Part shown: one piece after another, positions 28,724 to 56,608 of the stretch
Layout: every line of letters begins with the position of its first letter
How positions within the stretch are numbered: position 1 is the stretch's first letter
NCBI GenBank assembly: GCA_017347445.1
Contig: AP021856.1
Coordinates: forward strand, 1,000,613 to 1,064,612
DNA length: 64,000 nucleotides
Source of the DNA: Candidatus Brocadia pituitae
GTDB taxonomy: Bacteria > Planctomycetota > Brocadiia > Brocadiales > Brocadiaceae
Direction of reading: 5' to 3'
Notes under the pieces: generated by a model
What the model was told of the DNA's origin: nothing
Database searches by the model: none
What the model saw: only the letters and a program-made list of their open reading frames with translations
Made by a program: the position numbers and the translations under genes

Positions 28724-28925
28724 TTTTTCTCTCCTTTGTCTTGGATTAAGTTCTCGTTGACCCTTCTAGAAGAAAATTTTTTGCTATAACCAATAGCAAA
28801 AGTGTAAATTATAATTAATTCATTTGACTCTTCCTCCTTTCTTATTCGTGAGTGTCTTGCAAGGCTTGAAAAGCCGTACAAATAGCCATATTTAAGCCAT
28901 TATCCTTTTAAAAATCCTTCTTATT

Positions 28926-29512: not shown

Positions 29513-29572
29513 TAAAAACAAAAAAGCCTTACTGCAAAAATGTTCATTTGAAACAGCTTTGGCAGTAAGGCT
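29513..29572 (-). terminator. Intrinsic terminator of riboswitch 1
   Basis: Minus strand: AGCCTTACTGCC and GCAGTAAGGCT form the stem, followed by TTTTTTGTTTTT. The 5' arm is also the 3' end of the aptamer. Confidence 0.85.
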
Positions 29573-29685
29573 GTCTTTTCCCATAAGCCGTTTAAACTGC
29601 TTAAACGGTTCAAACAGTTTAAACGGCTTGTAAAGACCCTATTACTTTGCGCCCCCTGATCACTCAGGGTTTACCTTTATCAAAT
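29561..29685 (-). ncRNA. Cyclic-di-GMP-I riboswitch (GEMM-I), copy 1, degenerate
   Basis: Minus strand: AAAGGTAAACCCTGAGTGAT, CAGGGGGCGCAAAG, GGGTCTT, then AAGACAGCCTTACTGCC. P2 is closed by a GTGA (GNRA) tetraloop. Compared with the other two copies it has GGTAAAC for GGCAAAC and GGGCGC for GGACGC. The guanine and the first A of GCAAAG that clamp c-di-GMP are kept. P3 carries an inserted GTTTAAAC-type repeat. The gene downstream is a wreck, so the switch may be an orphan. Confidence 0.8.
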
Positions 29686-37758: not shown

Positions 37759-37779
37759 AAATCAGCAATTATACCATCA

Positions 37780-37907
37780 CGATAAGGGCAAACCCTGAGT
37801 GATCAGGGGACGCAAAGTAACAGGGTCTTGCGAGCCGTTTAAACAGTTTAAACCGCTTAAACCGCTTAAGCCGTTCAAACGGCTTTGATAAAGACAGCCT
37901 TACTGCC
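37780..37907 (+). ncRNA. Cyclic-di-GMP-I riboswitch (GEMM-I), copy 2
   Basis: AAGGGCAAACCCTGAGTGAT, CAGGGGACGCAAAG, CAGGGTCTT, then AAGACAGCCTTACTGCC. P2 (CCCTGA/TCAGGG) has a GTGA tetraloop, and GGACGCAAAG is the conserved ligand-binding segment. P3 is closed by GTCTT/AAGAC and carries a 58-base insertion of GTTTAAAC-type repeats. P1 uses TAAGG with CCTTA. The CCTTACTGC segment is also the first arm of the terminator, so ligand binding should favour read-through into the S8 peptidase gene 155 bases downstream. Confidence 0.92.
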
Positions 37908-37947
37908 GAAGATGTTTTAATGAACATTTTGCAGTAAGGTTTTTTTG
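37898..37947 (+). terminator. Intrinsic terminator of riboswitch 2
   Basis: CCTTACTGC pairs with GCAGTAAGG, followed by TTTTTTTG. It overlaps the aptamer's 3' end and forms the expression platform. Confidence 0.88.
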
Positions 37948-37999
37948 CTTTTAAACAATGTATTGCAGCGCATTGTTTTGTATAAGGAGGTGATGACCT

Positions 38000-38017
38000 A
38001 TGATTAGTAACAAGTAA
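38000..38017 (+). other. Five-codon leader frame MISNK
   Basis: ATG ATT AGT AAC AAG TAA follows AAGGAGGTGAT, a full match to the 16S anti-Shine-Dalgarno. It lies between the riboswitch terminator and the peptidase gene. It may be a leader peptide, a ribosome standby site, or chance. Confidence 0.35.
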
Positions 38018-38061
38018 GTCGTATTTTTTTATTGGTTTGTTAACAGAGAAAGGAGGAATAT

Positions 38062-38821
38062 ATGGAGAAAATGAACAAAAATAATATGTACGCGGAAGTT
38101 GTACTCCGCTCGCGCACAGGGGCTTCACTAATTGCAGATGGTACCCGTTGTATAACTGCGGATAAACTTCGTTTATACCAAGCCGAGCCAGATAGTCCTG
38201 AAGAGATTAAACGTAAGTTGGAAAAGGTAGGGTTTACGGTCGTCGCAACGAGTCAATTTGGGGTTTCGATTTCTGGGTCCGAAAAGCTTTATCAGGATTT
38301 TTTCAAGACAAAGATTATTGAGCGCCCAGTTACGATGTTCCTAGGTGAAGGAATTGAGCATCAAAGCAACGCCTTTTTTTTAGAAGAACCGCCAAAGATT
38401 CCAAATGATGTGTCAGGCTTAGCGGAAACTCTGTACATACCCAAAAAGGGTTACTTTTTGGCTGGAGAGGGGACTATGCCTACACCATCGTATTATCATC
38501 TCAGGCCACCGGCTGATATAAGCAGGCTTACGGGTGCTGATAATGCACATACTCGCGGGTTTCGTGGCAATGGTATAAAAGTAGCAATGGTTGACAGCGG
38601 ATTCATTCTTAATCATGATTACTATGCAGGCCGTGGCTACAATATTACCGTGCACACAGCAGTAGGGTCTGCGACCCAGGACGAGTATGGTCATGGCACA
38701 GGCATTGCGGCGAATCTATTGGCTATTGCCCCTGCATGTGAATTCCATTTTGTTAAGATGTCAGACGGAGTGCAGTGGGCAACATTAGCTGCATTTCGTA
38801 TGGCTGTTCAGGCTGGTGCTA
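38062..38821 (+). pseudogene. S8 subtilase with prodomain, 5' part (split by IS630)
   Basis: ATG after AAAGGAGGA at five bases. Residues 1-130 form a prodomain (VVLRSRTGASL, QFGVSISGSEKLYQDFF) which has a free-standing paralogue at 42493. The catalytic domain follows with Asp178 in VAMVDSGF and His211 in YGHGTGIAANL. Coding is cut after base 38821 by an insertion sequence; the frame would close early at 38829. Joined to 39969-41056 it gives a 615-residue protein, the frame restored exactly as codon AGG (VITNSWG follows). The protein has no signal peptide that I can see. It could become active again if the element excised precisely. Confidence 0.9.
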
Positions 38822-39966
38822 GTGCTTAATTGCATAAATTCATTATAGTATTTCTTAATTGCGAACCCTTAACCTCTCTCTTACGCCACACGAAAGGTTT
38901 TGCATTCGGTTGATAAGCTTCGATGAATGCCTCGATTGCACACCTCAATTGCTCAACACTTTTAAAGCTGGCGTTCTTCAAAGCTTTTCTCGAAAGAATA
39001 CCAAACCATATTTCCACCTGATTGAGCCAACTTGCAGAAGTAGGTGTAAAATGGAATTTAACATTCGGGTGTGCTGCCAACCATTCCCCGTTTCGCTTGT
39101 GAATACAGTAGTTGTCGAGAATAACATGGATTTCCTTCTTGTCGCTATCCGGTAAATCCAAAAGCAGTTGATCCATGAATGCCAGAAATTCCACTCGTCT
39201 TTTTAATTCTGTTGTTTGCGTATGAATAGTTCCTGTTGCCACGTTGAGAGCTGCAAACAGGTTCAGCGTCCCATGACGCTTATAGGTACTTTTAAGACCA
39301 TGTACGATTTTTCTGTTGCTTGTACATACATAGCCTTTGGTTCGCTCTAAAGCTTGTATACTTGGCTTTTCGTCAACAGAAATCACTATGGCATTCTCTG
39401 TCGGGGACAGGTATAAACCTACGATATCAGCCGCCTTGGTCGTAAATTCCGGGTCAGTACTCACACACCAGCTTCTTTGCCGCGCAAGGCAAATGCCTTC
39501 CTTTCGAAGAATACGCCAGATGGCATCGTCTGATGCCCCCAAATGCTTTGCAAGGGAGGGACCATCCCAACTTGCCTGTCCTTTTGGCGGCTCAAGCTCC
39601 AATGTCTTCAAAACCTGATTGCGAAACTCCTTATCATATTTCGCAGGTTTGCCGGAACGAGGCAGATCGTACAAGCCTTTGATCCCGTTTGTACTAAAGC
39701 GACCACGCCACTCAATAACAGTTTTCTGGGATGTCCCAAGGGCTGTGGCCACCTTATTCACCTGCTCTCCGGCAAGCAGCATGTTCATGATTTTAGCTCG
39801 TCCAACAAGCCTCCACTCTGCACTCCGACTATTAGCCCATTCGGCAAAAATCTGCCGATCTTGCTCCGAACAACAAGGTATTGGTGCTTTTCTTGGCATG
39901 GCAGACCTCCTTCATATAGAAATAAAAGGAGTCTACTATATTTAACTTATTTTTGCAAGTATACAC
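38822..39966 (-). mobile_element. IS630-family insertion sequence
   Basis: 1145 bp with imperfect terminal repeats (GTGCTTAATTGCATAAAT at the left; GTGTATACTTGCAAAAAT read inward from the right; 14 of 18 match). TA dinucleotides at 38820-38821 and 39967-39968 are the target-site duplication typical of IS630/Tc1-mariner elements. The host gene is the S8 peptidase. Confidence 0.92.
38826..39899 (-). CDS. IS630-family transposase
   Basis: 357 residues, with GGAGG seven bases before the ATG. The N-terminal part holds a helix-turn-helix (VATALGTSQKTVIEWRGRFS). The DDE core shows VISVDEKPSIQ, HVILDNYCIHK and SWLNQVEIWFGILSRKAL, the three acidic residues in IS630 spacing. Full length, so the element may be active. 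The stop codon lies inside the left terminal repeat. Confidence 0.95.
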   Translation of the reverse strand: MPRKAPIPCCSEQDRQIFAEWANSRSAEWRLVGRAKIMNMLLAGEQVNKVATALGTSQKTVIEWRGRFSTNGIKGLYDLPRSGKPAKYDKEFRNQVLKTLELEPPKGQASWDGPSLAKHLGASDDAIWRILRKEGICLARQRSWCVSTDPEFTTKAADIVGLYLSPTENAIVISVDEKPSIQALERTKGYVCTSNRKIVHGLKSTYKRHGTLNLFAALNVATGTIHTQTTELKRRVEFLAFMDQLLLDLPDSDKKEIHVILDNYCIHKRNGEWLAAHPNVKFHFTPTSASWLNQVEIWFGILSRKALKNASFKSVEQLRCAIEAFIEAYQPNAKPFVWRKREVKGSQLRNTIMNLCN

Positions 39967-39968
39967 TA

Positions 39969-41056
39969 GGGTTATCACGAACAGTTGGGGACAAAGTCAT
40001 GATCCTGTGCTCGAGGCTGAGATTATTGCTGCTGTAGCAGGAGGTATTACCGTCATTTTTGCTTGTGGAAATGGGGGAACAGTTGGCTGGCCTGGGTGTA
40101 TGCCCCATGTCGTCTCTGTCGGCGGTGCCTACCAAAGACAAGACGGTACATGGGAAGCATCGAGTTACGCGTCTAGCGGTGTACATTATAGATACCCAAA
40201 TAGACACTGCCCCGACTTATCTGCCATTGTTGGTCACGCACCGAAAGGAATCTTCATTGTGATGCCTACAATGGCTGGTGCTATTTTTGACGGCTCATTC
40301 GCTGGCGGAGTTTTCCCTAATGGCGATGAGACTGGAAAGAGCGATGGTTGGCTCGTCGGCAGTGGCACATCAAGCGCTGCCCCTATGGTAGCAGGTGCTG
40401 CAGCATTATTGTTACAAGCTAAACCTAGTCTTACACCTGCGGAGATAAAGCAGGCTCTGTCAGACACCTGCATTGACGTTGTTCAAGGAACCAGCGCTAG
40501 TGGGGAAATGGCTGGCATCGGCCCAGACAGTGCGACTGGTGCTGGTATGATAAATATTGGGGCTGCCGTGGATAATGTCTCACCTCCAATTACTTGTCCA
40601 CGTGCGCCTACAATTATATGCCCCCGTGCACCTACCATATGCAAGCGCGCTCCAATCGTATGCGCTCGTGCACCCTTTTGTCTGCGAGCCCCGATCGATG
40701 CATGCGTTCGTGCACCCATTGACGTATGCGCTCGCGCACCTTATGTCTGTGCGAGAACTCCGATTATTACATGCACCCGAGCACCAATTGATGGCTGCCT
40801 TGCTGGACCATGGAAAAAACCAGTCCCCATAGATAAGATTATCCCACCAGAGGGAACACGCCTTGAAGGTGAAGCAGCCTCTCGTAGGCTTGTACCCGTT
40901 GTGGTCATGGTGAGCGAGGAAGTATTGGAAATGTGGAGGGCAAAAGAGGAAGCATATAATATAATTTACAAAATCGGTATGGTTGAAGAATATACAGACT
41001 TCCCTGGTGCAGAAGGATGTGAGAGAGGTCCATTCAATCCGACTGGCAAAGAGTAG
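39969..41056 (+). pseudogene. S8 subtilase, 3' part with Cys-x-Arg-Ala-Pro tail
   Basis: Continues the protease: oxyanion Asn in FACGNGG and catalytic Ser388 (restored numbering) in VGSGTSSAAPMVAG. From residue 463 to 530 lie nine C-x-R-(A/T)-P units, CPRAP, CPRAP, CKRAP, CARAP, CLRAP, CVRAP, CARAP, CARTP, CTRAP, and a tenth CLAGP. Spacing between Cys is 6-8 residues. A soluble C-terminal part of 85 residues follows (IIPPEGTRLEGEAASRRLV). Without the 5' part this half has no start. I infer that the tail is the target of the radical SAM enzyme next door. Confidence 0.9.
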
Positions 41057-41123: not shown

Positions 41124-42458
41124 ATGCAGATGCGAACGAATCCTCTTGATTCTGATGTTCCCTTTTTCCCTTTCAACATCCGACCGTCTGGGGACGGCAG
41201 TCATTTTGTTACAACAAACCATCTCACTGCCAAACCAATCCACCTCAACAAACAGGCGGCTGAAATACTTCGCCTAACTGATGGTGAAACACCGCTTTCT
41301 ATCATTATCGCAAGGTTAGTTGACCGTTATCCTGATGCAGGTGGACCAACTGTTATTCATTCTCAGATTATAGATCTTTTACGATTTCTCACAGCAAAAG
41401 AACTTATCTGGTGGAGGGAAAAACCCTTAGAGCTACTGCCTGCAGAACCTCCATCAAGTGTATTTTGGGAACTTACTGCTGCTTGTAATCTTCGTTGTCT
41501 TCATTGTGTTGTAAGTGCTGGCTTAAAAGCGGACAAAGAATTGCCCACAAAACGTTGTCTGGAACTTATCGAAGAGTTGGCTGACTTTGGCCTCCAGAGC
41601 ATAGCCTTCAGTGGCGGTGAACCGTTGCTTCACCCTGACTTTCGTCTTATCGCTGAAAAGGTTAGAAACCGAGGTCTTATGATTCAAGTTGCCACGAATG
41701 GTACGATGGTGACCAAAGAAATTGCTCAATGGCTTAAGGAATTAAACGCTGAGGTACAGGTGAGTCTTGATGGTTCTATCGCAGAAATCCACGACTATGT
41801 GCGACCCGGGTGCGGAGCCTTTGCCAAGGCAGTTGAGGGTATAAGGACTCTCGTGGATACTGGTCACGAGGTTATGATTGGCACTGTACTATCGACGTTG
41901 AATGCCAACGATATTCCCTCCCTTATTTCACTTGCCGAGACACTGGATGTTGCCCACTTCCGTCTTATTCCCTTTGTGCCTAAAGGTCGCGGCGAGAGTT
42001 ACATGAACTTAGAGGTCTCACCATCCGAAGTAAAGAGGGTTGTCCAGTTTTTACATGAATTAAGAGGAAAGACAAAGGTTAATATTGTTGCCCTTGAATT
42101 CGAAGATATGCTGGAAATAAAATTATGTGCTGATCCTTTTGATATTAATCGTCACCTTGGCTGTCATGGAGCCGTTAGTTATGCTACAATTACTCCTACT
42201 GGCGAGTTACTTCCGTGCCACTTTTTTGAAGGTGTCCGTGCCGACAATGTGGCTTTTGCCCCATTTCAAGAGGTCTGGCGTCGTTCAAGATTTTTAAACT
42301 ATTTCAGGCAACTTACCGTTGCTGATCTACATGGGGGATGCCGTGATTGTAATTGGCTTCCACGTTGTGGTGGAGGGTGCAGGGCGGTAAACTTCTCAAA
42401 AGGTGATTTCCTGGGAACCAACCTTCAATGCTGGATCGCTCAAGAACAATTTTTGTAA
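41124..42458 (+). CDS. PqqD-domain radical SAM/SPASM peptide-modifying enzyme
   Basis: AAGGAGAT lies before the ATG. Residues 1-95 form a PqqD-like peptide-recognition domain (HLNKQAAEILRLTDGETPLS). The radical SAM core starts with CNLRCLHC (Cys121, 125, 128) binding the 4Fe-4S cluster and AdoMet, and continues with FSGGEPLLHPDF. The SPASM region follows with GCHGAVSYATITPTGELLPC and GCRDCNWLPRCGGGC, binding auxiliary clusters. Enzymes of this build (PqqE, AlbA, ranthipeptide makers) join or oxidise residues of a ribosomal peptide. It sits 67 bases after the protease whose tail has repeated Cys, the natural candidate substrate. Confidence 0.9.
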   Translation: MQMRTNPLDSDVPFFPFNIRPSGDGSHFVTTNHLTAKPIHLNKQAAEILRLTDGETPLSIIIARLVDRYPDAGGPTVIHSQIIDLLRFLTAKELIWWREKPLELLPAEPPSSVFWELTAACNLRCLHCVVSAGLKADKELPTKRCLELIEELADFGLQSIAFSGGEPLLHPDFRLIAEKVRNRGLMIQVATNGTMVTKEIAQWLKELNAEVQVSLDGSIAEIHDYVRPGCGAFAKAVEGIRTLVDTGHEVMIGTVLSTLNANDIPSLISLAETLDVAHFRLIPFVPKGRGESYMNLEVSPSEVKRVVQFLHELRGKTKVNIVALEFEDMLEIKLCADPFDINRHLGCHGAVSYATITPTGELLPCHFFEGVRADNVAFAPFQEVWRRSRFLNYFRQLTVADLHGGCRDCNWLPRCGGGCRAVNFSKGDFLGTNLQCWIAQEQFL

Positions 42459-42492: not shown

Positions 42493-42819
42493 ATGAAGGA
42501 TAAGTCCACAATCATCGACGTTATGTTTCGTTCGGCCTCAGGTCTTTCTCTGAGTGACAGAAGACCAGGAATCAAAGAACAAGATATATCACTATATGTT
42601 GCAACAGAGGAGACAAAAAAACAAGCCGTTCTGGCACTGCGACAGTTGGGATTCGAGATCATCGGACCAGCTACTAATTTCGGAGTCTCGATTTCTAGTT
42701 CACCTCAACTTATACGAGAAGTTTTTGGAGAGGGTGAACTTAAAGTGCCCAAATCTCTGGTAAAATGGATAGAGTCGGTTCGTATTCCCCCCCCAGGCGA
42801 GTTCTATAGTAAAAAATAA
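42493..42819 (+). CDS. Stand-alone subtilase prodomain-like protein
   Basis: 108 residues starting MKDKSTIIDVMFRSASGLSL. Aligned by eye with residues 9-136 of the peptidase, it shares V-RS-x-(T/A)-S/G-(A/L)-SL, an LxLY-like step, and FGVSIS(G/S)S with nearby PxLIREVF. Both end in a Pro-rich strand (IPKKGYFL against IPPPGEFY). Free prodomains of subtilases act as folding helpers or inhibitors of the mature enzyme. It begins 34 bases after the radical SAM gene in the same direction and is probably part of its transcript. Confidence 0.75.
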   Translation: MKDKSTIIDVMFRSASGLSLSDRRPGIKEQDISLYVATEETKKQAVLALRQLGFEIIGPATNFGVSISSSPQLIREVFGEGELKVPKSLVKWIESVRIPPPGEFYSKK

Positions 42820-56073: not shown

Positions 56074-56343
56074 TTAATAAGGTACCTGTACAAAATCTCC
56101 GATGGAGCTTCCGTCATTGTTATACACCGTTGGCATATAAAAGGTGTTTTCTGCGGCCTGATCGATCTTTTGGTTACACTTTGGGCACCTCCGGTTGTGC
56201 GGTCCACGGCTAATGAATTTTTTCCCGCACATAAGACAACTCCGCTCTGCTTTATCGGTATAAACGTTTTTCAGGGAAAGGTTTTTTTCGTTATATTTTC
56301 TTTGGCTTTTGCGTTTTGACTTTTCTTTTTGTTGGACACTCAT
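56074..56343 (-). CDS. Small zinc-ribbon protein under riboswitch control
   Basis: 89 residues. A basic start (MSVQQKEKSKRKSQRKYNEK) is followed by CLMCGKKFISRGPHNRRCPK and CNQ, two CxxC-type knuckles of one zinc ribbon. The protein then ends in a Tyr/Val-rich tail. The basic start suggests nucleic-acid or ribosome binding. A complete promoter, a c-di-GMP-I aptamer and its terminator stand immediately upstream on the same strand (riboswitch at 56497-56566), so its expression is probably set by c-di-GMP. The function is unknown to me. Confidence 0.7.
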   Translation of the reverse strand: MSVQQKEKSKRKSQRKYNEKNLSLKNVYTDKAERSCLMCGKKFISRGPHNRRCPKCNQKIDQAAENTFYMPTVYNNDGSSIGDFVQVPY

Positions 56344-56451: not shown

Positions 56452-56508
56452 CAAAAAAAGCCTTACTGCAAAGATAGTTTTCTCTTACATATCTTCGGCA
56501 GTAAGGCT
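56452..56508 (-). terminator. Intrinsic terminator of riboswitch 3
   Basis: Minus strand: AGCCTTACTGCC pairs with GCAGTAAGGCT, followed by TTTTTTTGTTG. The first arm is shared with the aptamer. Confidence 0.9.
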
Positions 56509-56566
56509 GTCTTTATTAAGACCCTTTACTTTGCGTCCCCTGGTTACCCAGGGTTTGCCCTTGTCT
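56497..56566 (-). ncRNA. Cyclic-di-GMP-I riboswitch (GEMM-I), copy 3
   Basis: Minus strand: CAAGGGCAAACCCTGGGTAA, CCAGGGGACGCAAAG, AAGGGTCTT, AATA, AAGACAGCCTTACTGCC. P2 CCCTGG/CCAGGG has a GTAA tetraloop. This is the most compact of the three aptamers: the P3 loop is only a few bases, without the inserted repeat found in the other two. Confidence 0.92.
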
Positions 56567-56608
56567 GAATATGAATTATTATTGAAAGATAGATATTAAA
56601 TGAAAATT

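Follow-up and report, generated by a model that had tools for sequence, protein, structure and literature searches.

Which signal is read by the leader in front of the subtilase and radical SAM genes of Candidatus Brocadia pituitae, and does that signal turn the genes on or off? The genome carries two copies of the hydrazine synthase alpha gene, which mark it as that of an anammox bacterium, and the leader lies in the window analyzed here (the whole stretch of 64 kb), where the first-pass annotation had proposed a GEMM-I riboswitch that starts at 37780 and releases an overlapping terminator upon binding of c-di-GMP. We assign this element (hereafter the main copy; Table 1), with a probability of roughly 0.88, to the class I c-di-GMP riboswitches acting as transcriptional ON switches, one of about 45 that form a genome-wide regulon. 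The observations underlying this reading are the aptamer match, the ligand-contact bases, the strand overlap between aptamer and terminator, and the recurrence of that overlap.

Table 1. Features of the main riboswitch, the genes behind it and the two further aptamers in the 64-kb window
Feature	Position	Strand	Basis
c-di-GMP-I (GEMM-I) aptamer, main copy	37777-37910	+	RF01051, 55.7 bits vs GA 35
Ligand-contact base G20 (Vc2 numbering)	37787	+	Model position 11 = G; role of G20 per PMC9049102
P2 hairpin with GTGA (GNRA) tetraloop (37799-37802)	37793-37808	+	Sequence, covariance model, fold
A47, ligand-stacking base	37814	+	First A in GCAAAG
P3 5' strand AGTAACAGGGTCTT, competes with terminator arm	37816-37829	+	Fold
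P3 loop insert, ~60 nt, palindromic TTTAAAC repeat	37830-37890	+	Repeat recurs elsewhere in genome
Switch strand AGCCTTACTGC, common to aptamer P3/P1b and terminator	37896-37906	+	Folds
Intrinsic terminator: 11-bp outer stem, inner hairpin, T-run	37896-37946	+	Folds; hairpin -22.5 kcal/mol
C92, ligand-contact base	37907	+	Vc2 numbering
Five-codon mini-ORF (MISNK) after strong Shine-Dalgarno	38000-38017	+	Sequence
Subtilase gene, 5' part: prodomain-like, Asp and His of triad	38062-38822	+	ORF 38062-38829
IS630-family insertion between CTAG copies (38819-38822, 39966-39969)	38823-39965	-	Transposase 38826-39899(-), NF033545, 232 bits
Subtilase gene, 3' part: triad Ser, C-terminal tail, nine CxR(A/T)P repeats	39970-41056	+	PF00082, 71.7 bits; ORF 39953-41056
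PqqD-like/radical SAM/SPASM protein	41124-42458	+	Pfam/NCBIfam profiles
Stand-alone protein like subtilase N-terminal (prodomain-like) region	42493-42819	+	BLASTP E = 1e-8
Second c-di-GMP-I aptamer, terminator type as main copy	29558-29685	-	RF01051, 50.6 bits
Third c-di-GMP-I aptamer, terminator type as main copy	56493-56568	-	RF03167, 69.5 bits; RF01051, 72.1 bits

The aptamer and its predicted ligand

An Infernal search with the GEMM-I model had been proposed as a check of the riboswitch, and the aptamer passed the family cut-off: cmscan of the window at Rfam gathering thresholds matched RF01051 with E = 3.5e-8, a value computed over the whole 64 kb. The location given by the first-pass annotation was right except for its start, which is 37777 rather than 37780, and the two elements it had named, the GTGA tetraloop and GGACGCAAAG, were both read in the aptamer sequence; the loop is of the GNRA type, which in this family docks into a P3 receptor. 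In common with the RF01051 family, the main copy has the aptamer structure, the GNRA loop, G20, A47 and C92, and a score well over the cut-off, whereas it is set apart by its long, repeat-built P3 loop (63 nt outside the model alignment display) and by a copy number unusually high for one genome. Judged by its sequence, the main copy is a genuine, ordinary c-di-GMP-I riboswitch of a known class with a clear ON architecture, for which a response to the ligand is predicted.

A dispersed palindromic repeat of the TTTAAAC type occupies the P3 loop in many of the riboswitch copies. Sequences resembling this loop repeat were found at 28 places in the genome, some of them outside riboswitches (including 448037, 1123467 and 1133458), as if the P3 loop tolerated insertion of a dispersed repeat.

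Contact bases were numbered after Vc2, with G21, C46 and A47, key residues described in PMC9049102, as anchors. In this numbering the binding pocket (G20, A47 and C92) is of the c-di-GMP type throughout, and G20 and C92 predict c-di-GMP over cGAMP. Assignment to the c-di-GMP-I-GGC variant (RF03167) was also considered: the main copy resembles it (58.3 bits against a cut-off of 59), as does the copy at 56493, but the RF03167 consensus has G47, whereas A47 was found in all Brocadia copies examined. On account of A47 and the score below cut-off, RF03167 was rejected as the identity of the main copy.

An A at position 20 relaxes specificity, a change associated with cGAMP binding, and A20 occurs in three of the 45 copies (2823848, 128046 and 3564238); together with the identical fold family, this would fit a riboswitch for 3',3'-cGAMP or for mixed ligands, as in the GEMM-Ib riboswitches of Geobacter. 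The main copy, however, has G20 instead of the A20 of GEMM-Ib, as well as C92. The genome encodes 16 GGDEF domains, in line with a supply of c-di-GMP, and all of them (16/16) retain Asp at the site of base recognition, which is Ser in Hypr cyclases, so that no Hypr-type cGAMP synthase is evident. Therefore cGAMP was rejected as the main ligand, cGAMP or mixed sensing being very improbable at this locus, and c-di-GMP is retained as the predicted ligand.

A strand shared by aptamer and terminator

The first-pass annotation had described CCTTA as common to aptamer helix P1 and the terminator stem. The sharing was borne out: the 5' arm of the terminator, AGCCTTACTGC, doubles as the 3' strand of aptamer helix P3 plus closing pairs, while the 3' arm, GCAGTAAGGTT, lies at 37931-37941 and the T-run at 37940-37946. 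The helix had been misnamed, since the Rfam consensus structure and the folds both place CCTTACT in P3, and P1 was rejected as the shared strand. In prefix folding the switch strand was inside the aptamer from transcript length 132 and inside the terminator from length 164. As would be expected without ligand, the complete leader has its energy minimum in the terminator fold; energy alone is thus no proof of switching. With one strand common to both structures, ligand-bound aptamer and terminator would be mutually exclusive, which predicts an ON switch.

The proposed mechanism has three steps: i) as RNA polymerase leaves the aptamer, AGCCTTACTGC would pair within it (P3); ii) without ligand, the later-made GCAGTAAGGTT would displace the aptamer strand, so that transcription ends at the T-run of the completed terminator; iii) if c-di-GMP occupies the site between G20, A47 and C92, the aptamer would keep the strand until the polymerase has passed, and the downstream genes would be transcribed. 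For the main copy we infer ligand binding, the direction of switching and regulation in the cell. The ON logic, already put forward in the first-pass annotation, is supported as a prediction by the covariance model, the contact bases, the folds before and after the terminator arm, and the copies elsewhere in the genome: a terminator overlapping the switch strand was found in 35 of the 45 copies, and folding placed the switch strand in the aptamer before the arm exists in 28 of these 35 and paired it with the arm afterwards in 34. The pilM riboswitch of Geobacter metallireducens has the same ON logic, its terminator taking the 3' strand of the aptamer so that the folds are exclusive (PMC9262584), and a strand common to exclusive terminator and aptamer was likewise found in the main copy; pilM binds cGAMP (PMC9262584), whereas the contact bases of the Brocadia copy predict c-di-GMP.

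Most copies barely differ in sequence, and compensatory changes are accordingly few. All three strands have changed together in copy 3305259 (AGGA/CCTTCCT/AGGAAGG versus the usual AGTA/CCTTACT/AGTAAGG), and in copy 837198 the aptamer and switch strands co-change (AGCA/TGCT) and the terminator retains a G-U pair. Moreover, the outer stem was kept in an RNAalifold analysis of 60 hairpins, with three pairs changed on both sides. The three-strand pairing has some, though limited, support from sequence changes; a strand constrained by two partners would be expected to leave most copies alike.

Among c-di-GMP-I riboswitches there are also OFF switches, such as Cd1 (PMC9262584), and four copies of this genome are without an overlapping terminator and resemble types of other genera, both of which would accord with an OFF switch or with translational instead of transcriptional control. 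For the main copy we consider either highly doubtful, as its terminator requires the aptamer's own strand and cannot coexist with the ligand-bound aptamer, and as the start codon lies 115 nt past the terminator end. A transcriptional ON switch remains the preferred reading.

Start-stop mini-ORFs comparable to the one in the main leader were seen elsewhere: MN, with a strong Shine-Dalgarno, at about 28813-28821(-) between riboswitch and gene, and MSLL downstream of riboswitch copy 2834482.

The protease operon behind the main copy

The riboswitch does stand in front of the subtilase and radical SAM genes, as had been described, but the operon is not intact: an IS630 element splits the subtilase gene. 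Read across the empty IS630 site, this gene is in frame (...AGARVITNSWG...) and encodes 615 residues. Sixteen full or nearly full copies of the element are present in the genome at 99-100% identity, so the insertion is probably recent. From the sequence, the insertion should prevent synthesis of the full-length protease; it may also block read-through into the radical SAM gene and probably separates that gene from the riboswitch. Among the NCBIfam models shown, none scored above cut-off for the radical SAM enzyme of the window, which did not qualify as a TIGR03975-type maturase. Searches for the enzyme at E <= 1e-60 in the 32 remaining family genomes and at E <= 1e-45 in the 391 remaining genomes of the phylum found no match, leaving no orthologous leaders for comparison.

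A homologue of the subtilase was found within the family only in G003, a second species of the same genus, and in the wider phylum in G125, a distant planctomycete of another family. In G003, a c-di-GMP-I aptamer with the terminator type of the main copy (L076:9369-9473(-)) is followed by genes for the homologous subtilase (586 aa, with a PIKP-repeat tail), a RiPP radical SAM C-methyltransferase (TIGR03975, 671 bits against a cut-off of 282) and a prodomain-like protein. The Rfam call for this aptamer was RF03167 (61.2 bits against a cut-off of 59), yet its sequence has A47. The riboswitch precedes the subtilase in both family genomes with that subtilase (2/2), and the repetition in G003 indicates that the association of riboswitch and operon is no one-off. 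G125 has an operon of the G003 type, but the 13 kb examined there contained no Rfam match, so the riboswitch was probably added in the anammox lineage. The suggested tie between a peptide-modifying protease system and c-di-GMP gains from the arrangement in G003, but it is not special, being one of about 45 copies.

Across three operons, the type of subtilase tail tracks the class of the radical SAM enzyme beside it, being Cys-rich next to a SPASM enzyme and Pro/Ile-rich next to a B12-binding one. As a lead from these three operons, this suggests that the tail is the substrate of the radical SAM enzyme. The operons at L156:4180-9044 and L076:4199-8958 encode a subtilase with a PI(K/R)P-type tail and B12-type radical SAM, prodomain-like and 2OG-oxygenase-like proteins, and may represent a protease-borne, RiPP-like system shared by two lineages of planctomycetes. 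A subtilase adjoining a radical SAM enzyme is also seen in QhpD/QhpE-type maturation (radical SAM plus subtilisin-like protease) and in RiPP systems with TIGR03975; unlike these, the subtilases of the window and of G003 bear a repetitive C-terminal tail (CxRAP and PIKP, respectively).

Copies across the chromosome and the family

RF01051 matched 45 times in the genome (one contig, 4.08 Mb), 44 of the matches being over the cut-off and three of the 45 falling in the window. Geobacter uraniireducens reportedly has about 30 GEMM-I elements. We know of no published anammox case of c-di-GMP-I riboswitches, and no description of the anammox set was found in the open-access literature searched. The class was present in all 33 Brocadiaceae genomes searched, with 20-56 copies per genome within the genus and 1-28 in other genera. 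The overlap type recurs across the genus and as single copies in other genera (e.g., L082, L110, L111, L114 and L115); outside the genus, most of the remaining copies sampled differ in P3 (CCATGGGTCTTC / GAAGATTGCCAGGTTGCC) and show no strand overlap of this kind. Two of the terminators that the automatic test called in relatives, L081 and L094, were false positives. At L090, L099, L100 and L101, from two other genera of the family, a terminator AAGACCCA...TGGGTCTTTTT follows the aptamer and its arm may pair with the aptamer's GGGTCTT; these could be OFF switches.

The first downstream ORF of at least 90 aa is co-directional with the aptamer in 41 of the 45 copies (binomial p = 5e-9, with some of the ORFs possibly spurious). 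Pfam matches in the first genes include PKD/cadherin-like, Big, Kelch-repeat and autotransporter domains, polysaccharide biosynthesis protein, glycosyltransferase, trypsin, Trypco2, caspase-PEGA, GspH, sigma-54 activators, cytochrome c' and transposases. This gene set resembles the known targets of GEMM riboswitches. The main riboswitch would be one of about 45 in a c-di-GMP regulon of surface, envelope, protease and signaling genes.

Two further arrangements were observed. Tandem c-di-GMP-I aptamers at 2195100-2195293(-), neither with an overlapping terminator, precede an ORF of 1300 aa or more that carries sortilin-like domains, and the third riboswitch of the window is followed by a small Cys-rich, zinc-ribbon-like ORF (MSVQQKEKSKRKSQRKYNEKN...) at about 56074-56343(-).

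Upstream of the aptamer start, comparison of the copies revealed no clearly conserved element. A shared promoter copied along with the module was rejected because conservation ends at that point, and the promoter apparently does not travel with the riboswitch module. A near-identical module in many unrelated contexts, conserved only from the aptamer start, could be a widely copied repeat that now regulates nothing useful at the main locus, to which the truncated copies (836106, 663299 and 3564238 among them), the dispersal of the P3 loop repeat itself and the broken first gene would also point. This is nonetheless unlikely: most copies retain the contact bases and the overlap while the loop varies freely, the great majority lie ahead of a co-directional ORF, and a second species has the module before a homologous operon. 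Thus a regulatory set of c-di-GMP ON switches is favored.

More tentatively, at somewhat less than even odds, riboswitch and terminator may constitute a portable ON cassette for c-di-GMP that has dispersed among anammox genomes, its sequence largely fixed by the strand with two partners, and that put dozens of unrelated surface and envelope units, including protease-borne, radical-SAM-modified repeat tails, under one messenger. Since anammox bacteria live in granules and biofilms and are not open to routine genetics, signal readers encoded in the genome are valuable. The larger point is one of context, namely the extraordinary copy number of a known riboswitch class in one anammox chromosome: adhesin-like, polysaccharide, protease and regulator genes stand behind about 45 c-di-GMP switches, which makes control of aggregation by c-di-GMP a directly testable hypothesis.
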